From a virus, in the IMG/VR virus record IMGVR_UViG_3300034108_000114, positions 1 to 22,348 of that record: a stretch of 22,348 nucleotides of DNA; one strand, given 5' to 3'. The position numbers were made by a program, and so were the translations under genes. The notes beneath the pieces are model-generated. The model had not been told where the DNA came from. It was given only the letters and a program-made list of their open reading frames with translations, and made no database searches. This document shows positions 4,740-17,339 of the stretch, one piece after another (within the stretch, counting starts at the first letter, position 1; the number at the start of each line of letters is the position of its first letter).

Positions 4740-5525
4740 TTAAACCTCTTCTAGGCTTACGGAAATATTCCAAAGGTCATGGCTTAAGCCTCCACGTTTT
4801 TCAACGGAATAGCTAAAATTAGAAATAAACATTTCTATAACTTCGTTATACTGTCCAAGCCTGTCGTATTTGTTTTCGTCTTCTTCTGAAAAGTTAGTAT
4901 ACTTATCGTAGGATAGGTATACCCAAAAAGAGTCTTGATGTGTGCTATACCATTCTAGCAATTCTACTCCACCAGCTCCGCCATCTGATGTAAACTGATC
5001 TGAAAGAGTAGTTGTGTTTGGCAACTGAGTAAAAGTAGTATCTGCTGGATTTATTTGTCCATTACTTAGCCTAGACTCTGGACTCCTTTTTCCATACTGA
5101 TAGCTGTCTCCAGACTTTGTGGCCTTGTTATAGACTGCTTCTGGAGTTCCATCATTATTAAAATCTGGAATAGCACTGGCATTAAAGTTTGGTTTGGTTT
5201 TAAATGATCTAGATGGAAGCATGTCCCAAGATGTAGACAGGGTTAGCTTATCTGCAATATGATAAGAACGCATTCTTCCGTTAATCATTCTTTCTCTTTT
5301 TTCAATTCTTAAAGTATCGAATTGTAGCGGAGAGCGATTGTCATCTGACAAAACCATAAATTCGTTTAGCAAGTCTTGGTTTTCTGATTCTGCTGGTGTT
5401 TGCCCTACCTCAAAACCGTTTGGAAGATATAGTCCTCCAGAGGTAGTCCCTGGATTGTTTGCCCAAAGCATAGCTTGAGGACGTTGATACTTTTTTCTTC
5501 CATTCATATAGGAAATTGAGGCCAT
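4740..5525 (-). CDS. Distal-tail-like / minor tail protein, 261 aa
   Basis: It lies directly after the tape measure and before the large tip protein, the place of the distal tail (Dit) protein in siphoviruses, which caps the tail tube and anchors the tip. No catalytic motif or signal peptide is visible. The N-terminus (MNGRKKYQRPQAMLWANN) is basic. The middle is rich in S, T, N and D and probably looped. The C-terminus (IEMFISNFSYSVEKRG, then DLWNISVSLEEV) reads as a beta-rich ending often seen in actinophage minor tail proteins. The start codon overlaps the tape measure stop by one base (TAATG), with no good Shine-Dalgarno, so it is probably translated by coupling. The Dit assignment rests mainly on gene order; 'minor tail protein' is the safer label. 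Confidence 0.75.
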   Translation of the reverse strand: MASISYMNGRKKYQRPQAMLWANNPGTTSGGLYLPNGFEVGQTPAESENQDLLNEFMVLSDDNRSPLQFDTLRIEKRERMINGRMRSYHIADKLTLSTSWDMLPSRSFKTKPNFNASAIPDFNNDGTPEAVYNKATKSGDSYQYGKRSPESRLSNGQINPADTTFTQLPNTTTLSDQFTSDGGAGGVELLEWYSTHQDSFWVYLSYDKYTNFSEEDENKYDRLGQYNEVIEMFISNFSYSVEKRGGLSHDLWNISVSLEEV

Positions 5526-8500
5526 TAGAATCTACCGTTTCTTACTCTTTGTGACTCAACTCTTTGAAGCTGGGCCATTACTGTTTGTGCAATTGTGTTT
5601 GGATCTGACTGAGACGCAACATTTACACTCAAGTTATAATTATACACTGAACTGTTATTATTTGCTGGAACTTGCTTGTCTGGTAACCTTACTGGTCCCT
5701 TGGAAATTCCTGGGTCAAACGGTATTCTAAATAATGGCTTATTGAATTCTGGTTTATTATAGGTACCAGTTGATTCGTCAAAATAACGACTTCCCCCCAG
5801 ATACATCATTCCCTGACTATTGCTAAAGGATCCAGAGTTAATCTTATTAAATAAATCTGTTCCGTACTTATTAACCATCGGCCTTCTTACTACAAACTCT
5901 CCAGGAGTTAGCATTGCTGGCACAGTATCCGAACCTAATGGAGAACCTCCATCTGACATATAGGACATAACCTTTCCGCCAGAGGACATTGCAATAAAGT
6001 TAGTGCCAAGTAGGCTTCCTCCACCTGGTACGACTACTGGTTTGCCACCATTTGGTGCTGGTGGTCCTGGTGGTTTTAATGGAGTTGGTCCTGCTGGGCC
6101 TGTAGGACCTGTTGGGGTGACGTCTCCCTCATTAACTGTCTTTACTGTATAAACACTTTCTTTTGGTTTCTCAATTTCGTTCCAGAGATCTTGAATTTTT
6201 TGAACTTCTTTTAGGGCCTCTGTCATTGCATCTTTATAAGTAGCACTATTTACTCTGGCCAGATCAATCTTGTTCTTGATAGCTTCCCATTCAGCTTTTG
6301 TGTTTCCAAGAACTTCCAGCTCTTTAATTCTCTTGTCTAGCTCAACTTGTCCTAGCCTAATTCTTTCTTGAGCTGGCTCTAAAGTCTTCTCTTCAATATC
6401 AAGAATGCTCTTTGTAAGCTCTTCAATTTTTCCTTCTATCTCAACTCTAGATAGTCCGTTTGCCCCCCTTACCTGACCTAGTGCCGACTCTCTTCCAGCA
6501 TTTAGTGCATCAGTTTGGCTTGAGAAATATCCAGAGGCAGATGTTGCTCTAAGGTCTTGAGCTGCTCTTGCAGTTGCGGCTAGGTCACCACGGGAGATAG
6601 CTTCTGCAACAGATAGCTTGCCCTTTTCTTGGTCTAGAACCTTCTGGTTAGCTGCCCTAACTTTTTCTAGTGCTTCTAGCTTTTCGTCGTAAGTTTTATT
6701 AATTGCTTTTTCTTGATCTTCTACACCACGAAGAGATGCTTCGTAATCATCAACCTCATATCTAATCTTAGCAATTTCATTTTCGGCTGCAGTTATTGCC
6801 TCCTGATCGTCTTTAAACTTAAGATCAAACTCTAGGGTTAGCTTCTTCTCTTCAGCGTCAAAGGCTTCCATAGCCTTGTTAAAGCCCTCTTCAAATACTT
6901 CTTGCAAACCTTCTGGAGTTAGTCTTGCAAGCCTCTTCTGCTCCTCTAAGACCCTCTTTCTTGCCTCTAGCATTTCTTGCACGTCAGCAGTTGTTACGTT
7001 GCCGCTAACAAGTGCAGCAGCAAGTTCGGCATCCTGTATTGCTTCGTAAGCTTCTGCAACTGAGTAGCCAGCAGCCCTAAGTTCATTAAAAGCCCCCACT
7101 TGGTTTTTTGCTTCTTGTGCAGCCCTTTGCTGATCATTAACATATTCACCAATAGCAATTGAGGATAGAGCTTCTCCGATGTTCATGAGCTTGTTCTTAA
7201 AGCCGATAATGGCTCCAGTCTCTTTATCAAAATTAAATAGAAGATTCTTCTTTTTCTCAAACTCTTCTGGGTCCATTCCAGCTATAGCACTTATAAGGCT
7301 TTCTCCAGCCCCGAGCCTTCTCATGCTTTGCTCTAGACCGTTAAATCCACTGATACCCTTGTTGCCACCAAACAGTTTGTCTAAGGCTGCTGAAGATGCG
7401 TCAAAGCCCTTTGTAACTCCGATTTGACTCTTACGAACATCTCTTAGCTTCTTTAGCATATCGTCTAGAGGAGAGGCTGCTGGACCACCACCACCACTAC
7501 CAGCGTCTTCTTCTGGTGCAGGGGCTCCTTCGCCAGAAAGAACCACTCCAGATGTAGTGACTTTTTGTGCCATAGAGTCGGCGTATGTTTCTTGCCACCA
7601 GGCATAGGAGTGCTCTCCTGGGAACGCTCCGTGCTTTGCTCCTTCATCACCTAGCCAGTTTTTAAAATCAGAAGATGCTATAAAGGTTGCTTCTGGAATT
7701 TGCATAATCATTCTAGAAACTAAAACGTAAGTTTCCTTTTGTGCATTTGATTGCAGGGTTGCAAAATATTCTTCGTTAAATGCATCTGCATATTTACCAT
7801 CAACAGTGAACTCTGGAACGACTTCGTAAACCTGTTCTACCGTCTCTACTTTTCTTTCATTTAAACCGCCCATCACTGCAGTTATTGCCTCAGAGTTTGC
7901 GGTATCATCTACAATAGCAGTAAATACAGTTTTAATGCTATTTTCCATTACGCCAGAACCACCGAGTGCAGCTACGTTGGTTGCAAGATCGATTAGTCTT
8001 TGTGCTTCTACAGAGTCTGTTCCCGTGGCCTCCACATCTAATAAGAACTTTGCAGATAGCTCATCATCTTTAATCATATTGGCAACCATCATGGCTTCAG
8101 TTGCCATAGGTCCACCAAGGTTAGAAATAATGTTAACAACCTTATCTACATCACCGACGGTTAGAAGTCTACTCAAGGCATCTAGGGGCAAGTCTGATAA
8201 AATTTGAGTTCTTATCATAGCTTCTTGACCCTTGTCAAGGTTTGCAGTTGCTATCTGATTATCAATTACTGGCATGTAGGTTGCAGCGTTTACATCATCT
8301 TTGTATTTAATGTTTGCTGCATTTTTCAATCCAGTTATAACGGCTTCCTGGCCACCCGCATCCATTTCGTTTACGGTACTTATAATGTCTTCGTTTAGGC
8401 TTGCCGCAGTCTGAGTGAGACCAAGTCTTTTTTCGTCATATTCTAACTGAAGTCTTTTGTACTCAGCTATATCCCCTTCGGCTGCTGCCTCATCCATTTT

Positions 8501-11500
8501 TTTAGCGTAAGTTTCATCTAGGACTGCTTTAATTTCATTTTGTTGTTGCACTGCGACAGTTAGGTCTGCTACAAAAGCTCCTGATGCAGCACCAACCTTT
8601 TTAGCAGCTTCTTCTAACAACGATGTTGCTGTAAAATATCCAGCAACTGCTCCGACAAGTGTTCCAGCAACTAGTCCCACTGCGGTTCCAAGACCTGGGA
8701 TTATGCTTCCAATACCAGCTCCTGCAAGAGCAAATGCTGCAACTGTTCCTCCAGCGGCTATGCCTCGGCCAGCTTCTGTATCAAGTCCCGCACCGAACAT
8801 GTTTCCTACACTAAGAGGGCTGCTTCTTGAATTTGCTAACTGAGCGTTCATGGCTTCTTTCGACTGCTCCATATTGTCTATAGATGTAGCTGCTAATCTT
8901 GTAGCAACAACTAGCTCATTGTTTTTTAAGTCTTCTCCTCCTGGACCAATTAGCTCTGTTATTTCACCTCTGACTTTTATTCCAAAAGATGCATCGTTCA
9001 GCTGAAGACCTATTTCTGACGCAATGCTGCCTGCCTGATCTGCAGATAGTGCCCCAGAAACAACGGACATTGACAGCTGGCTAGAAACTGCCTTTAGTGC
9101 AGATGCCGTGTCTCCACCACTATTAGCAACTTCTGTTTTCAAGTCCTTGAGCAATTCCTGTCCAGCCTCGTCTTGAATGTATGATTCACCAAAGGTAGCT
9201 TTTCCTGGAGCAACTTCCATTAATCTAAATCTGTTCTCTCTTCGTTTTTCAGCTTTTTCTCCAGCAGTTACGTTTCCAGCAAATTCTCCAAGCTTTCTGA
9301 TTGATTCCGTACTAGCACCAATAGACTGTTGCAGCCTTATGGCTTCTTTCTGAGCGTTTTGGTAAGCATCGTTTACTTTTAGAATGGCCATAGTCATTGC
9401 CCCGATCATGGCTACTGCCGCTACAAAAGCACCAGAGAGTGGACCCTGAATAAAAGAAGCTAGGGTGGTCATTGCCATAATAGGTCCAGCAATCTGTTGA
9501 GCGGTTTCTCCAACTACTCCTGGTATCATAGATGCCGCACTAGTAACCATGGATGCTATCATTCCAGTTTGGGCTAATTTTCCACCAAATTTTTGTATTT
9601 GTTCTTTTTCGGTTAGCGGCCTCTCAACGCCATCGACACCCTGTCCACCAGTTCCTGCTGCAGTAGTGTTTGTTGGGGTGGACTGATTTGTTGGGGTGGG
9701 CTGAGCTTTAGGACCAGCGTAATACTTACTATTTGGGTCTGTCTTTGGATCATAAACAACTTTTCCAGTTTTTTGATTAACTACCTCAGCATTTCCAGCT
9801 ATAGCCTGGCCCAGCTTACTCTTGGCCCAACCTCTTGCCATGCTGTCAGAAATGTTATCACCAACACTTGTTCCAATAACCTTTGCCTTCTCTAAAAGAC
9901 CCTCTCCTAATTGCTGAGCACCATCTTTAAATATTTGCCTAAAGCCTTTTTTATTTGGAGAAATTCCATCGCCATCAAACGCATTGGACGGACTTCCAAA
10001 TGGATCTGGACCTACAGGTGGTGCAAGAGGGTCCGAGACTCTAAACGGATCATTGCCTGGATCATATCCCTCGTTATATCCTGGAATATTTCCAGAAATC
10101 ATAGAACTAATTAGTGGGCCATACTTTTCTGCCATAGCAGCTGGAATAACAGCTTCTCCTGGGGAGAGCATGGCAGGGACAACGTCTCCTGCCCCCTTTG
10201 GCCCTGGGACAGAGACAACGCCCCTGGCATAACCAACTGGCTCCTTAACCTTTGGAGCCTTTGGCTTTGCAATTTTTACGTTAGAATGTAGTGTGTGGAA
10301 TTTTCTCCAGTCAACGGCGAGACCTGCTTCAAGCCTTCTAACCATATCGTCATACATACCAACGTCTGCTGGGTTTGTTAGCTTAAAGGATGCGATAGTT
10401 TCTTTAAGTCTTGGAAGAACCCTTTGGATCTCGCCAATCATTCTTTGGTGATATTGCTCTGGAGTTAGTCCAGCCATCAATCCTAGGGTAGCCTCTGCAA
10501 AAGCCCTCTTTGCACCGCCCTTAATTCCAAGAAGATTTATAAGTGCTTGGTCTTCCATGGATGGAAGGTTGCTTGAGTATTGCCTTAGCCCAGAGGCCCT
10601 GTCAAATACTCCAGCAGGCCCAACGTCTGCAACAACATCTCCGTAAACATTGGCTGCAGATAAGTCTTTGTCGGCACGTAGTAATGATGCAGCAAGCTGT
10701 CTAAAGTATTGCTCTTCATTGAACACACCCATTGGCTGAGTGTTGACAAATGTTGGATCCAGATCAGACTCTAATGCCAAGAACCTTCTTTGTCTTGTAA
10801 CATCCATTGGGTCTCTCATTACAACTACCCGTTGTTCTGGTGCCTTTAGTCCGTGAGCCTGTCTAGCAATTGCTGTGGCTCTCATTTCTGCCATGGCTGC
10901 AGTTTCGTCCATTACTGGCTTTACGAATACTTGCTTTGCTCCCTTTTGATATACCCCGCCGAGACCAAAGATTGGGAAGCTGTGCCCAGAAGTTGGAGAG
11001 ATCTGGTGACCATATTCTGTTGGAGGGGTATTTGCATAACTACTCTTTTTAAAGAGTTCGTATATTTCATCTCCTGCTGTGCGACCCTTAGAAACAGATT
11101 TTGCTGACTTTGGCATTCCAAGGAATACGCCCTTCATAAATCCTGGGATATTTCCAGCAATCATGTCTTGAATAAATGGTGCGTATTTTTCTGCTACCTT
11201 GGCTGGAATAACCGCTTCGCCAGGAGATAGCATTGCTGGAACAACGTCGCCAGCACCCTTCGGGCCAGGCACCGAAAGAGTTCCTCTTGCAAATCCAGTT
11301 GGTGCACCTTGAGCAGCGGAAGCTCTTCTAGGCCCCATAACTTGTGTTCCTGCAGAATTTATTGCAGTTGCAGCTATCTTAAACTGGTTAGCAGTTTCTG
11401 AAACCTCTAAGCCAAGGTTATTTGCTGCAGTCTTTAACTCTTCTACATTTTTTGTTGCAGCTTCGGTAGCTGTGGAAAGATTTGTGTTTTCGAGTGATTG

Positions 11501-14500
11501 CTCTTTAACTTTTTTAGTTGCAATTTCAGATGTTGTAGCTAGCTCATTTAACTGGTCTACATCAAAATTTCTAGTGCTTTCTGTGTCGTAAACTTCTTTT
11601 AGTGGTGCATTATTTAAGCCAACATTCTTCTTAGCTTGGGATCTTCTTCCCTCTGGTCGTGCCCTTAAGCCAAGTTCTTCTGACCTAACTTCTGCAACTG
11701 TTTGTGCTGACGTATCTAGAGCATTTACCACATTTGGAGCTGATGACTGAATATTTGCTCTGACCTTAGACCAAAGTTCTTCTACGCTAACTGCAGCTAT
11801 TTTTGCATCCCGTAGTGCAGCAGCGTCTTCAAACTTATCTAGAACCCTTGTTCCCTCTGGAAGCGATGCGATTAAGCTATCAAACTCTTGATTTAGTCTT
11901 GCTGTTTCTTCTGCTAAAAGCTTTGGGTCTCCCCCGCCCATTTGAATTGATGGATCCCATTTGTTATCTCCAGCTTCTCGGAAAGCAGCCTGGAACTCTT
12001 CTCTACTAACTCCCTCTTTTGTATTTAGTCTTGAGTTTATTATTGGATCAAAGTTAGACATTCCGAAACCAGATTTTAGACTTACCATTGCATCTTGGTT
12101 TGCCTGCATAGACTTGGTCTGTTTACCTGTTAGCTGTATCTCGCCCTGCTCTTGTAATCTAAGTGCTTCTCTTGCACTCATTTCTTTTCCGCCACCAATG
12201 TGTGCAAGGGCCTTTGCACCCTTGTTGTTTGGGTCGTACGGAACTCTGGCTCTTACCTGTTTTACAAGCTCAGCGGAATCGGAAACAATCTGAGTTGTTT
12301 CATTTTTTAGAGCATCAATCCTCTCAATAAGAACAGCTTCAAGCTCATTAAACTTTTGTAAGGCTTCCTCTGTTCCGTCTCCTGCTGCTTGGATAGCAGA
12401 TGAAAGAATTCTTCTTGCATTGGTTTTACTAACGTCTGCTTCTGCTAATCTTTCTACAAGCTGTGTTCCTCGGCCTGGAAACTTTTGATCTATTTCTGCT
12501 CTTGAATCTGGTATGGCTTGGTTTCTAGGAGGAACCCAATTTTCATAATCCTGAAGCCTAGCTGATTTTATATCTACGTTAGATTTTCTATATCCTGGGA
12601 TATTGTCTGCAACAATGCCCGCAATGAGTGGGCCATACTTTTCAGCTTCTTTAGCAGGAATAACCGCTTCGCCTGGTGACAACATTGCAGGAACAACATC
12701 TCCTGCCCCCTTTGGACCAGGTACAGAAACCACACCTCTTGCATATTGCTGAGGAGGTCCTTGCGGGGCCTGAACACGCCTACCCCCCATAGCGTTAGTC
12801 GATATAGTAAGCTCTGGCCTAGCTCTTGCAACTGGTGCGACTGCACTTAGGGCATTTGCTGCAATTACTGCTTGCTGGTATGCAGCAATAAGTCCTTGGA
12901 CTGCCTGTGTTTCAGCGGTAAAGATTTGTGCCAACTGGGCATGTGATTGACCCAACGATGAGGCAACTGCAGCAGCTTCTAGCTGTTCTTGGGTCAGGTA
13001 CTGGGTAGAGTTTGCTAAGCCGCTAGAGTCTCCACCAAGTTTGTTATAAAATAGCCTAAGAGCATTAAAAGCTTTAATAAGGTTTCCGACACCGTTAGCA
13101 ACAAGACCTACGGTCATCAGTACGACTGGGGCAACAAGACCCAAAACTGCAATTAGCCCTGTCACAAAAGCTTTAGAGCCATCGCTCATTTCGTTGAACT
13201 TCTTTAGCATCCCCGTAACAAATTCAACAATTGGAGTAATGAGTTTTAAGAACTGTTCTCCTAATGGAGCTATAGCAACTGTAATATCTTCTATAGCTTT
13301 TTGGAATTTAAATGCTGGAGAGTCTTCTACCTTTTTTAATTCTCGATCTGCCAGTACCGCTAATTCTTCGGCAGTTCGTTGACCTAGCTCTAAAACCCTA
13401 TTGGCCTGACTACCTTCCTTAATTACGTTCTGGAAAAGTGTTGATAGACGTGAGAACTGAAATTTTCCGAATAGTTGCTCAATTGCTTGTGCACGATTAA
13501 GAGGATCTAGGTCGTCTAGGGCCTTTGCAAACTGTACAACAATTCCCTGAACGTCTCCCTTATTGGCGTCGACAATGCCCTTGATGTTAATACCAAGACT
13601 GGCCAAAAACTCTGAAGCTTTTGCAGAAGGATTGATAAGAGATGCAAGACCAGACTTTAGTGCGTTAGCACCCTCAGATGCGTTAATTCCACCTTCCTTC
13701 ATGGCTGTCAAGAAGAAGGCTAGGTCTTCAACGTCGCCACCTAGCTGCTGGACTACTGGACCAGCTTTTGGAATAGCAATAGTTAGGTCTTCAATTGCAG
13801 TAACAGTTTGGTTTTCAACTGCGTTTAAAAAGTTAATTTTTGAAGCTAGATCTTCGGCTGCAATACCAAAAGCATTTGTAATAGAAATTGTTGTTTCTAA
13901 AGCTTCTTGCTGTTCTACCTCACCCAATACCGCAAGCCTTGTGGCTTGTGTTACCTGAGACATAAGTGCCACACCAGCAAAACCTTGCTGAGCTAAATCT
14001 GCTGCAAGACCCAAAGTTTTTTCAACTGCAACGCCATACTTAGTAAACTCATTAGCTAGGTCTCTAACTTCTTGCAACGCTTTTTCTGTTTCACCAGAAG
14101 AAGTAAACATCTCACCGTAAACACGTTTAAATCTAACAGCCTGTTTCTCAAGCTCCATAAAGCTTTGTGCGGCTTTAGTTCCTAGCAATGCAAGCGGTAG
14201 TGTAAAACCAACCATAAGTTGGCGACCAGCCCACTGGACATTCTTACCCCAGTTAACTAGATTGGTTGTTCCTTGCTTAATTAGCTGGTTCAAAAGCATT
14301 TGCTTTTGTGCAGCTATAGCCGTTTGAGTTCCCAGGTTTTGCATGTCAAGTGCAAGTGGACGGACTTTAATTGCTTGTAGTGCTCCATTGGCATCTCGAC
14401 CCATCTTAATGTACTGGGTTTGAAGAGTCTTTACTCTTTCGGTTGCAACCTTTTCAATTGTTGCAAACTCGGATTTAAATAATTTTCCAAAGCTTTGGGT

Positions 14501-14800
14501 CGAAGCACCAGCATAGCGAAAATATTCTTTTAGCCCAAGCTTATTTTTTTCTAGGGATGTTGTAAAATTCTCTGCACTGCTCTTGATGTTTGTTAGGCTG
14601 GCCGCAAATTTTCCAGTTGCGTTTATAGAATTTACTAAAGTCTTTTGCATGTTCTGGGACAATGCTGCGTTAGCAGCATTTCCAGATGCAAGCATTTGGG
14701 AGTGGAAGGCCGAAATCTGTCGTTGCAGATTCTTGATACTAGCCAAAGCGGCGGTAGTATCAATATCGACTCTTATTTGTGCATTGGCATCTTCAGCCAT
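5525..14800 (-). CDS. Tape measure protein with repeated PGEAVIP modules and inserted domains, 3091 aa
   Basis: This protein sets tail length, fills the tail tube and is ejected with the DNA. Residues 1-170 are helical. About 176-400 is the TP901-type tape measure core (NWGKNVQWAGRQLMVGF; NAFGIAAEDL; AMKEGGINASEGANALKSG). Hydrophobic segments lie near 544-570 and 1742-1810, and a glycine-zipper segment near 2007-2056. Three 52-residue repeats (686-737, 1170-1221, 1524-1575) share DVVPAMLSPGEAVIP, and a diverged copy is at about 2944-2994. Between repeats 1 and 2 is an unrecognised domain. Between repeats 2 and 3 is a kinase-like domain (about 1234-1500). A long coiled coil (about 2600-2885) precedes a collagen-like GPTGPAGPT linker (about 2893-2916). 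I see no lysozyme or peptidase motif. It is unusually long: most tape measures have 700-2000 residues. A Shine-Dalgarno-like AGAGGTG precedes the ATG. Confidence 0.97.
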   Translation of the reverse strand: MAEDANAQIRVDIDTTAALASIKNLQRQISAFHSQMLASGNAANAALSQNMQKTLVNSINATGKFAASLTNIKSSAENFTTSLEKNKLGLKEYFRYAGASTQSFGKLFKSEFATIEKVATERVKTLQTQYIKMGRDANGALQAIKVRPLALDMQNLGTQTAIAAQKQMLLNQLIKQGTTNLVNWGKNVQWAGRQLMVGFTLPLALLGTKAAQSFMELEKQAVRFKRVYGEMFTSSGETEKALQEVRDLANEFTKYGVAVEKTLGLAADLAQQGFAGVALMSQVTQATRLAVLGEVEQQEALETTISITNAFGIAAEDLASKINFLNAVENQTVTAIEDLTIAIPKAGPVVQQLGGDVEDLAFFLTAMKEGGINASEGANALKSGLASLINPSAKASEFLASLGINIKGIVDANKGDVQGIVVQFAKALDDLDPLNRAQAIEQLFGKFQFSRLSTLFQNVIKEGSQANRVLELGQRTAEELAVLADRELKKVEDSPAFKFQKAIEDITVAIAPLGEQFLKLITPIVEFVTGMLKKFNEMSDGSKAFVTGLIAVLGLVAPVVLMTVGLVANGVGNLIKAFNALRLFYNKLGGDSSGLANSTQYLTQEQLEAAAVASSLGQSHAQLAQIFTAETQAVQGLIAAYQQAVIAANALSAVAPVARARPELTISTNAMGGRRVQAPQGPPQQYARGVVSVPGPKGAGDVVPAMLSPGEAVIPAKEAEKYGPLIAGIVADNIPGYRKSNVDIKSARLQDYENWVPPRNQAIPDSRAEIDQKFPGRGTQLVERLAEADVSKTNARRILSSAIQAAGDGTEEALQKFNELEAVLIERIDALKNETTQIVSDSAELVKQVRARVPYDPNNKGAKALAHIGGGKEMSAREALRLQEQGEIQLTGKQTKSMQANQDAMVSLKSGFGMSNFDPIINSRLNTKEGVSREEFQAAFREAGDNKWDPSIQMGGGDPKLLAEETARLNQEFDSLIASLPEGTRVLDKFEDAAALRDAKIAAVSVEELWSKVRANIQSSAPNVVNALDTSAQTVAEVRSEELGLRARPEGRRSQAKKNVGLNNAPLKEVYDTESTRNFDVDQLNELATTSEIATKKVKEQSLENTNLSTATEAATKNVEELKTAANNLGLEVSETANQFKIAATAINSAGTQVMGPRRASAAQGAPTGFARGTLSVPGPKGAGDVVPAMLSPGEAVIPAKVAEKYAPFIQDMIAGNIPGFMKGVFLGMPKSAKSVSKGRTAGDEIYELFKKSSYANTPPTEYGHQISPTSGHSFPIFGLGGVYQKGAKQVFVKPVMDETAAMAEMRATAIARQAHGLKAPEQRVVVMRDPMDVTRQRRFLALESDLDPTFVNTQPMGVFNEEQYFRQLAASLLRADKDLSAANVYGDVVADVGPAGVFDRASGLRQYSSNLPSMEDQALINLLGIKGGAKRAFAEATLGLMAGLTPEQYHQRMIGEIQRVLPRLKETIASFKLTNPADVGMYDDMVRRLEAGLAVDWRKFHTLHSNVKIAKPKAPKVKEPVGYARGVVSVPGPKGAGDVVPAMLSPGEAVIPAAMAEKYGPLISSMISGNIPGYNEGYDPGNDPFRVSDPLAPPVGPDPFGSPSNAFDGDGISPNKKGFRQIFKDGAQQLGEGLLEKAKVIGTSVGDNISDSMARGWAKSKLGQAIAGNAEVVNQKTGKVVYDPKTDPNSKYYAGPKAQPTPTNQSTPTNTTAAGTGGQGVDGVERPLTEKEQIQKFGGKLAQTGMIASMVTSAASMIPGVVGETAQQIAGPIMAMTTLASFIQGPLSGAFVAAVAMIGAMTMAILKVNDAYQNAQKEAIRLQQSIGASTESIRKLGEFAGNVTAGEKAEKRRENRFRLMEVAPGKATFGESYIQDEAGQELLKDLKTEVANSGGDTASALKAVSSQLSMSVVSGALSADQAGSIASEIGLQLNDASFGIKVRGEITELIGPGGEDLKNNELVVATRLAATSIDNMEQSKEAMNAQLANSRSSPLSVGNMFGAGLDTEAGRGIAAGGTVAAFALAGAGIGSIIPGLGTAVGLVAGTLVGAVAGYFTATSLLEEAAKKVGAASGAFVADLTVAVQQQNEIKAVLDETYAKKMDEAAAEGDIAEYKRLQLEYDEKRLGLTQTAASLNEDIISTVNEMDAGGQEAVITGLKNAANIKYKDDVNAATYMPVIDNQIATANLDKGQEAMIRTQILSDLPLDALSRLLTVGDVDKVVNIISNLGGPMATEAMMVANMIKDDELSAKFLLDVEATGTDSVEAQRLIDLATNVAALGGSGVMENSIKTVFTAIVDDTANSEAITAVMGGLNERKVETVEQVYEVVPEFTVDGKYADAFNEEYFATLQSNAQKETYVLVSRMIMQIPEATFIASSDFKNWLGDEGAKHGAFPGEHSYAWWQETYADSMAQKVTTSGVVLSGEGAPAPEEDAGSGGGGPAASPLDDMLKKLRDVRKSQIGVTKGFDASSAALDKLFGGNKGISGFNGLEQSMRRLGAGESLISAIAGMDPEEFEKKKNLLFNFDKETGAIIGFKNKLMNIGEALSSIAIGEYVNDQQRAAQEAKNQVGAFNELRAAGYSVAEAYEAIQDAELAAALVSGNVTTADVQEMLEARKRVLEEQKRLARLTPEGLQEVFEEGFNKAMEAFDAEEKKLTLEFDLKFKDDQEAITAAENEIAKIRYEVDDYEASLRGVEDQEKAINKTYDEKLEALEKVRAANQKVLDQEKGKLSVAEAISRGDLAATARAAQDLRATSASGYFSSQTDALNAGRESALGQVRGANGLSRVEIEGKIEELTKSILDIEEKTLEPAQERIRLGQVELDKRIKELEVLGNTKAEWEAIKNKIDLARVNSATYKDAMTEALKEVQKIQDLWNEIEKPKESVYTVKTVNEGDVTPTGPTGPAGPTPLKPPGPPAPNGGKPVVVPGGGSLLGTNFIAMSSGGKVMSYMSDGGSPLGSDTVPAMLTPGEFVVRRPMVNKYGTDLFNKINSGSFSNSQGMMYLGGSRYFDESTGTYNKPEFNKPLFRIPFDPGISKGPVRLPDKQVPANNNSSVYNYNLSVNVASQSDPNTIAQTVMAQLQRVESQRVRNGRF
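5819..5971 (-). repeat. Diverged fourth copy of tape measure PGEAVIP repeat
   Basis: Residues about 2944-2994 of the tape measure read DTVPAMLTPGEFVVRRPMV then NKYGTDL. This is the widespread phage form of the motif (VPAML-PGEFVV-KYG). It is clearly related to the three internal copies but much more diverged. It sits just after the collagen-like linker, close to the C-terminus, where such motifs usually occur in tape measures. Confidence 0.8.
10076..10231 (-). repeat. Tape measure PGEAVIP repeat, copy 3
   Basis: This is a 52-residue in-frame repeat (residues 1524-1575) from YARGVVSVPGPKG through PGEAVIPAAMAEKYG to GNIPGY. It has exactly the same length as copies 1 and 2. The central protein stretch is identical among the three copies, while the DNA differs at many third codon positions. 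It closes the kinase-like insert and opens a low-complexity D/P/G-rich linker. Confidence 0.95.
10300..11100 (-). other. Kinase-like (HipA/PI3K-like fold) domain inside the tape measure
   Basis: Tape measure residues about 1234-1500 read as a globular enzyme-like domain rather than tape measure helix. Visible elements in kinase order are: a glycine-containing strand (FGLGGVYQKG), a strand with a lysine (VFVKPV, K1294), a helix with an acidic residue (MDETAAMAEMRA, E1305) and a hinge-like strand (RRFLALESDL). A catalytic-loop-like DKDLSAANV follows (D1377 or D1379, N1384), then a metal-site-like VFDRASG (D1400) and a helical C-lobe. This spacing recalls HipA and PI3/PI4-kinase-like folds. It is pattern recognition only; a pseudokinase or an unrelated fold is possible. 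Confidence 0.45.
11138..11293 (-). repeat. Tape measure PGEAVIP repeat, copy 2
   Basis: This is a 52-residue repeat (residues 1170-1221) running FARGTLSVPGPKG...PGEAVIPAKVAEKYA...GNIPGF. Similarity to copy 1 extends about 15 residues upstream (MGPRRASAAQGAPTG against MGGRRVQAPQGPPQQ). It separates the first inserted domain from the kinase-like insert. Confidence 0.95.
12590..12745 (-). repeat. Tape measure PGEAVIP repeat, copy 1
   Basis: This is a 52-residue repeat (residues 686-737) running YARGVVSVPGPKG...PGEAVIPAKEAEKYG...DNIPGY. It follows the core domain, the first hydrophobic segment and an alanine-rich helix, and precedes an unrecognised insert of about 400 residues. Confidence 0.95.
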
Positions 14801-14822: not shown

Positions 14823-15143
14823 TTACTTAAGATTTGTTAGAAGAGAAGCGTCAGATAGCTTTACGCCAGATGCCTCTTCAACAATCTTATAGACAGTTGG
14901 AAGATCCAAAGTTTCTTCCAATGCCTTCAAGTCTCCAGCAATTTCTGGGTTGTACTGTTGCATAGCAATCTGTACACACTCCATAAGTAGGCTGAGTGAC
15001 TTGTCATTATCCTCTGCTACTGCAGCAATGCCCTCGAATTTCTTCATGAACGGTCTGAGTAGAGAGATCTTGAGTGGTCTTACCTTAATCTCTGTTCCAT
15101 TGATTAGTTTGATTACTTTTTCTTCATATACTTCTGTACTCAT
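14823..15143 (-). CDS. Tail assembly chaperone, short form (gpG-like), 106 aa
   Basis: It lies directly upstream of the tape measure, the fixed place of tail assembly chaperones, which coat the tape measure while the tube polymerises. It aligns over its full length with the N-terminal ~105 residues of the chaperone at 15928-15206: INGTEIKVRPLKI against IDGTEVELSPLKI, IAMQQYNPEIA against VAMKQYYPKIA, LDLPTVYKIVEEASGVKL against MDLQGVYKVLEFAAGIKI. I estimate about 40% identity. It lacks the C-terminal T-like extension and ends at LLTNLK. It has its own extended -10 promoter and a Shine-Dalgarno-like GAAGGA about 11 bases before the ATG. Product level could thus be set independently of the long form, replacing the usual frameshift ratio. 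Confidence 0.85.
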   Translation of the reverse strand: MSTEVYEEKVIKLINGTEIKVRPLKISLLRPFMKKFEGIAAVAEDNDKSLSLLMECVQIAMQQYNPEIAGDLKALEETLDLPTVYKIVEEASGVKLSDASLLTNLK

Positions 15144-15167
15144 ATTTTTTATATTCCTTCCGCTATG

Positions 15168-15197
15168 AGGCTTTACTAATTATAACATAAAAAGCCT
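15168..15197. repeat. Inverted repeat enclosing a -10 element
   Basis: The arms AGGCTTT (15168-15174) and AAAGCCT (15191-15197) are perfect 7-base inverted repeats with 16 bases between them. The spacer contains the extended -10 element of the promoter for the short chaperone. It could be an operator, or form a hairpin in readthrough RNA. There is no T-run after it on the minus strand, so it does not look like an intrinsic terminator. Confidence 0.5.
15179..15187 (-). promoter_or_regulatory. Extended -10 promoter for short tail chaperone and downstream tail genes
   Basis: The minus strand reads TGTTATAATTA: a perfect TATAAT (15184-15179) preceded by TGn. No -35 hexamer is seen at the right spacing, as expected for an extended -10 promoter. 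The predicted start lies about 30 bases before the ATG at 15143. The same motif recurs before other modules of this window. Confidence 0.65.
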
Positions 15198-15205
15198 TGA
15201 CTTTT

Positions 15206-15928
15206 CTACTTCTTTTTGGTCAAGTCTTCGTATCCAAGACCCATGCCAATGCCAAAACCAGCCTTTTGGGCATTAACCCCCTGAAGCGACAAGACGTCAT
15301 TTCCGCTTGTAGCTTTGCCACCACTAAACACCCTAGCTTTCATTTGTTCCCATTTATTTTCTGGGGCCTGTCCGCTACTCTTATCCAGATCTACGCCCTG
15401 AATAGCAGCTAAAAATTTCTTTTCTTGGTAGTCAAGGTCTCTTCTTGTTTCTAGGCTGGCCATTAACTCTGGAATAGACATCTGTATTTCTAGCTCTTCA
15501 TAATTTTTCCAAATGCCTAGCAAGAACACTTCGGCTTCTAGTTTGGCTAAGTCTAGGCTTTCCCAAGAGGAGGACCCGCTTTCTTTTGCTTGAGATATTG
15601 CTTGGGCCTCTGCTTGGTCTTTGACCGTATCTTTTGACTTTTCATTAATCTTGATTCCAGCAGCAAACTCTAGAACTTTGTATACGCCCTGGAGGTCCAT
15701 AGAGTCTTGTAAGTCTTCCATATTTGCAATTTTTGGATAGTATTGCTTCATTGCAACTGCTGCACAATTTGATAAAAATACTATTGCCTCATCATCATTA
15801 TCTGCTGTTTTAACTAGAGTAAATGCATCCATAAACTCTCTTAAATATTTTATTTTAAGCGGAGACAGCTCAACCTCTGTCCCATCGATTAGTGTCACTT
15901 TCCCTGTTTTGTATACTGTAGTTGCCAT
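15206..15928 (-). CDS. Tail assembly chaperone, long form (GT-like in one frame), 240 aa
   Basis: The N-terminal ~105 residues are a gpG-like chaperone domain, paralogous to the short protein at 15143-14823. A linker rich in K, E, Q, A and S (about 105-128) leads to a T-like helical domain: LAKLEAEVFLLGIWKNYEEL, then ELMASLETRRDLDYQEKKF and LAAIQGVDLD. In most siphoviruses this second part is reached only by a programmed -1 frameshift; here it is read in one continuous frame. The C-terminus (GIGMGLGYEDL) is glycine-rich. I chose the ATG at 15928. The longer frame to a TTG at 15952 would begin inside the terminator T-run. No Shine-Dalgarno exists before this ATG; a -10 element ends seven bases before the A, predicting a leaderless mRNA. 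Confidence 0.88.
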   Translation of the reverse strand: MATTVYKTGKVTLIDGTEVELSPLKIKYLREFMDAFTLVKTADNDDEAIVFLSNCAAVAMKQYYPKIANMEDLQDSMDLQGVYKVLEFAAGIKINEKSKDTVKDQAEAQAISQAKESGSSSWESLDLAKLEAEVFLLGIWKNYEELEIQMSIPELMASLETRRDLDYQEKKFLAAIQGVDLDKSSGQAPENKWEQMKARVFSGGKATSGNDVLSLQGVNAQKAGFGIGMGLGYEDLTKKK

Positions 15929-15940
15929 ATTATAAGTATA
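15929..15940 (-). promoter_or_regulatory. -10 element predicting a leaderless transcript for the long tail chaperone
   Basis: The minus strand reads TATACT-TATAAT-ATG. If TATACT (15940-15935) is the -10 hexamer (-12 to -7), the +1 base falls exactly on the A of the ATG at 15928. TATACTTAT is shared with the major tail promoter at 16723-16731. If the second hexamer, TATAAT, were the -10, transcription would start inside codon 3, which makes no sense for this gene. No Shine-Dalgarno is present. Confidence 0.6.
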
Positions 15941-15943
15941 CCG

Positions 15944-15980
15944 TAAAAACAAAATTACCCAGCCTAAAAAGACTGGGTAA
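15944..15980 (-). terminator. Intrinsic terminator after the major tail protein gene
   Basis: The minus strand shows TTACCCAG, a 10-base loop, then CTGGGTAA: a perfect 8-base stem followed directly by TTTTGTTTTT. It starts 20 bases after the major tail protein stop and ends just before the next promoter. Confidence 0.9.
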
Positions 15981-16000
15981 CTCTGTGTTGTTAAGTTATA

Positions 16001-16672
16001 TTACGATACTGCTGGGATGGTGCGGTCTACGATCTTACCGTAGGATGCGTTATCGTTTGGCAGTAGACGGAATGAAACCTCGTACATTGTAGCCTCATCA
16101 CGCTTTGCAGAAACTGTAACACTCTCAATAGAAAGTGCACGGTATGCAACGTAAATACGCTCAATCTGCTCGTCTGGGTTACAGTCACCTGTTCCTGGAC
16201 CAACAGCCACTAGGCCACGCTCTACTGGACATTCTCCAATGTCACCAGCAGACATGTTTAGTGTTTGAGATCCTTGCTTGATGCCTGTAACACCTGCACC
16301 AGTAGTAGTTAGGTCGTCGTCTTTACCAGCCAACGAGAACAGCAAGTTCTCTAGTGTTGCCTCAGCAAAAGCAGTGTTCAGGTTAACCTGCATACCCTGC
16401 TTGTATAGCTTTGCAACGTCAAGAACCTGGTCAACCTGTACCTCACCAAAATCTGGCTGGAACTGTAGCTCTAGACCATTCATTGTGTAACCAACGTTAC
16501 GGAATGCTGCAGAGTCAGCTAGGGTTTCACGGTATGTTCCCGTTGTGTTTCCAACAGATCCTTCAACTTCGTAAGCTGGAAGACCTGCGTCTGTCAATAC
16601 TCCTGCTTCGTATGTGAACAAAGCAGCTGCACCAACGATAATGTTAGTGCTTGTACCTCTTGTATATGCCAT
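16001..16672 (-). CDS. Major tail (tube) protein, 223 aa
   Basis: It builds the tail tube. The evidence is position (after tail terminator-like genes, before the chaperones and tape measure), length typical of the family, and beta-rich sequence without transmembrane or catalytic motifs. The N-terminus MAYTRGTSTNIIVGAAALFTY and the segment GYTMNGLELQFQPDFGEVQVDQ look like a tube-subunit beta-sandwich. The C-terminus (YEVSFRLLPNDNASYGKIVDR) resembles other actinophage tube proteins. A good Shine-Dalgarno (AGAGGTGA) precedes the ATG. The gene has its own extended -10 promoter and its own terminator, giving a monocistronic unit. Its codons favour CGT for Arg and AAC for Asn, as in the capsid gene, consistent with very high expression. 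Confidence 0.88.
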   Translation of the reverse strand: MAYTRGTSTNIIVGAAALFTYEAGVLTDAGLPAYEVEGSVGNTTGTYRETLADSAAFRNVGYTMNGLELQFQPDFGEVQVDQVLDVAKLYKQGMQVNLNTAFAEATLENLLFSLAGKDDDLTTTGAGVTGIKQGSQTLNMSAGDIGECPVERGLVAVGPGTGDCNPDEQIERIYVAYRALSIESVTVSAKRDEATMYEVSFRLLPNDNASYGKIVDRTIPAVS

Positions 16673-16722
16673 TTATTTCACCTCTTCTTTTTATAGATAA
16701 TAGGCGTGTTTCCTCATTCATA

Positions 16723-16731
16723 AGTATAACA
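16723..16731 (-). promoter_or_regulatory. Extended -10 promoter for the major tail protein gene
   Basis: The minus strand reads TGTTATACTTATG, an extended -10 (TGn plus TATACT). It lies about 50 bases upstream of the major tail protein ATG and just after the methyltransferase stop codon. No convincing -35 is seen. It matches the promoter motifs at 15179-15187 and 20427-20435. Confidence 0.65.
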
Positions 16732-16748
16732 GCCTTTTTAAATCATCA

Positions 16749-17339
16749 TTATTTAACAAATCTAAACAGAGTATGTGGTTCAATGTCTGAGCCTAAAAAG
16801 CTACAATCTATTACCCTAGGATCAACGTACCAATCCTCAAAGTTTGACACGTTGTGAGCAACTATCTTGTAGCCATGACTGAGCAGAAAGTCGTAGGCCT
16901 CTGCTTGATACTTATCATTGTCTCCACCTACATATCTGTCATGCTCAAAGGTAATTACTGAATATCGGTAATTCATAGGCATGTTTAATAAAGCTTTCAG
17001 GCTTTGCTGAGCTGGCTCGATGTCAACCTGTAAATAATCAATTTGCTTTGGCCATTTGTTTTTAATAAAATAGGGCAGCAAATCGTAGGTTGTCGCATCT
17101 ACTGCTAAGCAGGGGTTTCTTCTAGACTCATTGTAAAGATCTGCCCTGTTTTGAATTATCTCTAGGGACACTCCAGACCAGTTATATTCAGTTTCTAACA
17201 GATAGGTGTTTGAATCCTTGGTAGCGTGATATCCACCAATTTCAACGTAGTAGCCATTTCTTTTTTCTTTTAGCTGGTTTAGCACAAATGATTCCTGGGC
17301 CGCCTGACTATTACTGTTTGGGATTATTTCCATTAACAT
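16749..17339 (-). CDS. FkbM-family SAM-dependent methyltransferase, 196 aa
   Basis: This is a class I methyltransferase of the FkbM (Methyltransf_21) type, which O-methylates sugars or other small groups using SAM. Visible family elements are GYYVEIGGYHATKDSNTYLLE (residues about 28-48; SAM-binding motif I, normally EIGAYDG), WSGVSLEI (family form W-GvlvEp, acidic residue binding the SAM ribose), QIDYLQVDIEPAQQSLKAL (form iDYLslDiEGsE) and YSVITFEHDRY. All core blocks are present, so it is probably active. It sits alone between the tail terminator-like gene and the major tail protein, with no Shine-Dalgarno before its ATG; a second ATG lies two codons on (17333). Substrate is unknown: virion protein, virion glycan or host surface sugar are all possible. 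Confidence 0.8.
   Translation of the reverse strand: MLMEIIPNSNSQAAQESFVLNQLKEKRNGYYVEIGGYHATKDSNTYLLETEYNWSGVSLEIIQNRADLYNESRRNPCLAVDATTYDLLPYFIKNKWPKQIDYLQVDIEPAQQSLKALLNMPMNYRYSVITFEHDRYVGGDNDKYQAEAYDFLLSHGYKIVAHNVSNFEDWYVDPRVIDCSFLGSDIEPHTLFRFVK

Follow-up and report, generated by a model that had tools for sequence, protein, structure and literature searches.

Two genes in place of a programmed frameshift: a fused GT and a separate G tail assembly chaperone in a clade of probably actinobacterial phages

Introduction

Most long-tailed phages produce two tail assembly chaperones, G and GT, by a −1 programmed frameshift that has been kept despite great sequence divergence, and the usual explanation for this conservation is the need for a fixed ratio of the two proteins. 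A replacement for the slip has a precedent: to go by the title of a 2022 paper by Vladimirov, Gautam and Davidson (Virology 566:9-15), T4-like phages reportedly produce their tail assembly chaperones without a frameshift. The T4-like phages are a separate lineage, and nothing in our data links them to the DNA analyzed here.

In phage lambda, a single gene yields both G and GT because ribosomes slip at a low level, with a G:GT ratio of approximately 30:1, and roles have been assigned to both proteins (PMC5009743). The isolates nearest to the DNA analyzed here infect Streptomyces and belong mostly or entirely to Stanwilliamsviridae (127 records); a few others infect Rhodococcus (Francesca, Trina). 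These isolates have one G gene, and the T that follows in the −1 frame overlaps that gene's 3′ end. Records of Yaboi, Francob, Sham, and Francesca annotate the join; in 10/10 isolates examined, the −1 frame of T stays open across the overlap, which holds C CCA AAT, C CCG GAA or G GGA AAA as its heptamer. Where a genome has two chaperone genes but no joined one, the authors of PRFect supposed an annotation error (PMC10885494).

Here, we analyze the tail module of a 22,348-nt (22.3-kb) virus fragment, IMGVR_UViG_3300034108_000114 (hereafter, the window), and its relatives. A fused GT accompanied by a duplicated G, or a leaderless GT gene, was not described in the literature that we searched, outside which most subscription papers lie.

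Results

The window encodes a fused GT chaperone and a free-standing G paralogue

The tail module occupies the minus strand of the window, and its genes run in the following order:

16672-16001 (16001..16672), minus strand: tail tube (major tail) protein; matches PHROG 2175 and, weakly, PHROG 885, and has the position of the major tail proteins annotated in isolates
15928-15206 (15206..15928), minus strand: fused tail assembly chaperone GT; ATG at 15928, single frame, 240 aa
15143-14823 (14823..15143), minus strand: free-standing G chaperone paralogue (the short G); ATG at 15143, 106 aa, no T domain behind it
14800-5525 (5525..14800), minus strand: tape measure protein; 3091 aa, PF10145 with E = 1.7e-27 and PHROG 10030 with E = 3e-100

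An original prediction, made from the sequence of the window, had described a long GT-like form read in a single frame and a separate paralogue of its G domain alone; the coordinates, strand and frames that it gave for both ORFs were exact, and the long form is indeed a single frame. Its G domain covers approximately residues 1–100 and its T domain approximately residues 120–240. The short protein aligned by BLASTP with the first 100 residues of the long protein (40/100 identities, 71/100 positives, E = 6e-26), in agreement with the ~40% identity that had been estimated by eye.

PHROG 10504 matched both the N-terminal domain of the long protein (E = 1.7e-19) and the short protein (E = 1.2e-21), and PHROG 10474 matched the C-terminal part of the long protein (E = 3.1e-14). 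G and T of phage Targaryen scored 1.7e-64 and 6.6e-48 against the same two families, which therefore represent the G and T of Streptomyces phages. The G and T domains of the window are thus homologous to Stanwilliamsviridae-type tail assembly chaperones, and they lie between the tail tube and tape measure genes, as in those phages (Yaboi, Sham, Francob, Targaryen) and in Francesca and Trina. The arrangement nevertheless differs: Stanwilliamsviridae and the Rhodococcus phages have a single G, whose slippery heptamer precedes a T in the −1 frame, whereas the window has two genes. Lambda shares with the window a short and a long form with a common N-terminal domain, both encoded directly upstream of the tape measure gene (PMC5009743), but makes both from one gene by a low-level slip, while the window uses two genes with the long one first. 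The tape measure protein is the expected partner of both chaperones, and the tail tube protein that of the T domain.

Matches to chaperones of known fold were weak: HK97 chaperone 2ob9 gave Z = 4.0 over 84 residues in a fold comparison, and N15 GT was matched in BFVD with E = 9e-3 and prob 0.96. Foldseek against the PDB returned no significant match, a profile search of PDB sequences nothing meaningful, and a search of NCBIfam no match.

We also noted, by eye, three near-copies of a module, SVPGPKGAGDVVPAMLSPGEAVIPA...EKY.P.I..MI.GNIPG, along the tape measure protein (5525-14800, minus strand), and a fourth, looser copy, GSDTVPAMLTPGEFVV; the copies are spread through the protein. Separately, a 196-aa ORF (16749-17339, minus strand) lies between tail-terminator-like genes and the tail tube gene, where Streptomyces phages have no counterpart. 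It resembles FkbM-type methyltransferases by eye and has no Pfam match.

Fused and frameshifted loci exclude each other

Repeated scans of IMG/VR, together with the isolates, yielded 407 loci, which we classified with profile models of G and T in the three forward frames. T was fused in frame to G, with one further G downstream, in 239 of them. One more fused locus (L026) had a short G broken by a single-base loss, and in five others the contig ended before a short G could appear. In 159 loci (six near a contig end), T was in the −1 frame and there was no second G; we refer to this arrangement as shifted. In the shifted locus L090, G was split into two model pieces, and one further locus of the 407 was cut. 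None of the 407 loci mixed the fused and shifted states.

Some of these loci are repeats of one contig, so 90% protein clusters of these first 407 loci provide a better count. Among 107 fused clusters, 106 had a short G, the exception being at a contig end; among 79 shifted clusters, none had one. Two further scans, with the short G and a sister G as single-sequence queries, added 103 fused loci with a short G and 50 shifted loci (one of them, L408, from a GTDB contig), again none mixed; two additional fused loci from these scans (L484/L548) represent one contig, with G broken near the contig end. Moreover, no second G was detected in Streptomyces phage records with the short-G query, at one place per record. 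T lies in the frame of G in the window and in all fused relatives, and not in the −1 frame as in lambda.

Upon alignment, the G proteins of the Rhodococcus phages (L091:2007-2489 and L090:2019-2510) showed an insert of ~45 residues midway through the G domain. The short G of L026 (L026:3750-4060) lost its one base in an A-run, as judged against L025; this is either a sequencing error or a recent pseudogene.

WhiB genes provided information on hosts. Among 14 control genomes, the WhiB search matched only Corynebacterium; it found WhiB on 11/18 fused and 7/8 shifted records tested. WhiB on both kinds of record points to actinobacterial hosts, and the environmental phages of the fused clade probably infect actinobacteria. 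The GTDB genomes contained one relative, L408, a single-G locus without a fused gene: a G of this chaperone family (L408:3001-3700) here sits on a contig labeled uncultured cyanobacterium, although its relatives point to actinobacterial hosts. L408 is probably a phage contig that was binned wrongly.

The fused junction lacks the slippery site of the frameshifting relatives

A heptamer of one of five kinds was present in the G/T overlap of 77/79 shifted clusters (GGGAAAC in 16, CCCAAAC in 41, CCCAAAT in 11, GGGAAAA in 2, and CCCGGAA in 7), and a strict heptamer was found in 35/35 distinct new shifted G genes from the G-side scans. The original prediction had called for a search for such a site in the long gene. 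By contrast with the shifted clusters, none of the ancestral types (GGGAAAC, CCCAAA[CT], GGGAAAA, CCCGGAA) occurred at the fused junction in 107/107 clusters (0/107 positive), and the 107 junctions had no slippery heptamer in common toward the end of G, of the kind that lambda has. Nor did we find a frameshift between the two genes, which would have told against the prediction: the short gene leads into no T domain. The sequence GGA AAC after Ala-Ser in some short genes (L023, L033) was considered as a relic slippery site and discarded, as it did not align with the ancestral site.

The long gene could still make G itself if ribosomes slipped onto a nearby stop, in a dnaX-like manner, which would leave the second gene as an accessory paralogue. 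A stop codon is indeed close beyond the end of the G domain (median 6 codons in the −1 and 1 codon in the +1 frame), and 20/107 fused junctions carry some other strict heptamer, mostly A-rich. These heptamers are sporadic, however, and the one that recurs, AAAAAA[AG] at nt 483 of the fused gene, falls on conserved Lys-Lys codons within the T domain. Moreover, every complete fused locus contains the short G, which never accompanies a shifted T, as if it supplied the G function. Single members with an A/T-type junction heptamer may slip; as an account of the clade, we consider hidden slippage highly unlikely, given that no junction heptamer is conserved and that the ancestral types are missing throughout.

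The two genes carry different, conserved start signals

Predicted signals for transcription and translation of the two genes in the window are as follows:

15945..15986, minus strand: intrinsic terminator after the tail tube gene; 17-bp stem, 4-nt loop, T-run, −24.9 kcal/mol, z = −7.75
15935..15940, minus strand: −10 box TATACT, whose first base lies 12 nt upstream of the ATG of the fused gene; this gene lacks a Shine-Dalgarno site
15179..15187, minus strand: extended −10 box TGTTATAAT of the short gene; box in 106/106 clusters
15154..15161, minus strand: Shine-Dalgarno site GGAAGGAA of the short gene; strong, in 99% of clusters

A terminator-like hairpin preceded the fused gene in 103/103 fused clusters and in 1% of shuffles. 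TANNNT was found at −16 to −5 of the fused gene in 99% of 107 clusters, as against 22% when shuffled, with the first base of the box at a median of −12; the start ATG was invariant (107/107), and 3% of the 107 clusters had a Shine-Dalgarno site. In Actinobacteria, TANNNT around 12 bp before the start, with no Shine-Dalgarno site, marks leaderless genes, approximately 20% of the total (PMC3160421). The window and the fused clusters show this same TA-led pattern, and the fused GT gene accordingly looks leaderless. The published pattern concerns cellular genes genome-wide, whereas in the present phage tail operon one of two paralogues bears it.

For the short gene, the window alone is insufficient to show a promoter, as the region has seven promoter-like sites where 4.8 are expected. 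The claim that this gene has a promoter of its own gains its support from the relatives: a TGnTAnnnT box lies within 60 nt of the start in all 106 short-gene clusters. No terminator precedes the short gene in any of them (0/106). In shifted phages, an extended −10 box usually lies ~31–37 nt before G, a Shine-Dalgarno site is present in 97–100%, and a terminator after the tail tube gene was detected in 56–73%. The conserved start signals thus differ between the two genes: the short gene keeps the ancestral layout, and the fused gene appears to use another mode of initiation.

Elsewhere in the module, the stretch TTATACTTATGAAT (16715-16735, minus strand), upstream of the tail tube gene, is similar to the fused chaperone gene's −10 region and may be another promoter.

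The fused loci form one clade, and both G copies are under selection

In a tree built on a random subset, the fused T domains formed one clade (99/93), so that these data contain a single switch and not many. A quick T tree had put the shifted locus L114 inside this clade; in the careful tree it fell outside. Locus numbers are therefore not numbers of independent events, and conservation within the fused clade amounts to few independent tests. Together with the strict mutual exclusion across ~560 loci, the single clade of fused T domains argues for what had been proposed for the window, namely that duplication has taken the place of a programmed frameshift.

The fused G domains also grouped together (100/100), at the end of a long branch, and a separate clade held the short genes (bootstrap 94–96). 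A grouping of short and sister G in a quick G tree was not preferred by careful trees or by AU tests, which did not separate the branching orders of fused, short and sister G (p = 0.26–0.28). Mean identity to the sister frameshifting G was 59% for the short gene and 42% for the fused G domain, and the short gene scored higher in 100/100 clusters. By this comparison, the short gene is clearly the less diverged copy and resembles the ancestral G, and the fused G domain is the more diverged. Purifying selection acts on both G copies (median dN/dS ~0.10 for each).

These results bear on two further explanations. First, the short protein might have acquired a new role, such as modulating the tape measure protein, which would leave the fused protein as the sole chaperone. 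The two copies do differ at 60% of positions; even so, it is the short gene that is closest to the frameshifting G, that retains the start layout and that still precedes the tape measure gene, and within the clade it evolves more slowly than the fused G domain (divergence 0.344 vs. 0.466). We thus regard a new role as very unlikely. Second, an assembly or sequencing error might have fused G and T or duplicated G. Isolated broken cases exist (the short gene of L026, and G near the contig end in L484/L548), but 107 divergent clusters, recovered from many metagenomes, have the same two-gene structure, and both copies evolve under purifying selection; an artefact is scarcely credible.

Returning to duplication, a tandem duplication of a G/T cassette would be the likely origin of the two genes. 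The first copy would have undergone in-frame fusion, its G domain then diverging, and the second would have lost T and the slippery site. Such a path would explain why the long gene comes before the short one.

Tape measure length was considered as a driver of the switch and set aside: lengths overlap between fused (1711–3184 aa) and shifted loci (1608–4579 aa), with no clear link, and those of the nearest shifted sisters (2410–4579 aa) also overlap the fused range.

Discussion

Our results make it very probable that phages of the fused clade obtain their two chaperones from two genes, a fused GT and a separate G, in place of one gene with a −1 slip. The sister phages have a unit consisting of a promoter, a leader with a Shine-Dalgarno site, G with its heptamer, T in the −1 frame, and the tape measure gene. 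In the fused clade, we propose that the GT gene has its own promoter, with RNA starting at or beside the AUG, and that leaderless translation would yield GT as the minor protein. The short gene, which has a promoter and a strong Shine-Dalgarno site of its own and also lies on read-through RNA from the GT promoter, would yield G as the major protein. G would then coat the tape measure protein, and GT would bridge it to tail tube subunits via T, as in lambda. Since the start signals of the two genes are conserved and different, two promoters and two modes of initiation probably determine the G:GT dosage, in keeping with the original prediction that transcription and translation would set this ratio. 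Collectively, the data favor a scenario, which we hold to be likely, in which a clade of actinobacterial phages escaped the frameshift by duplicating G and fusing one of the copies to T, in which a leaderless GT with a Shine-Dalgarno-led G sets the ratio, and in which both forms are open to independent evolution and regulation.

The fused clade cautions against taking every chaperone pair that lacks an annotated frameshift for an annotation error, as was supposed with PRFect (PMC10885494). It also suggests that two genes can meet the need for a ratio. With close relatives on both sides of the switch, it offers material for testing the purpose of the frameshift, as G and GT are here free to vary separately.
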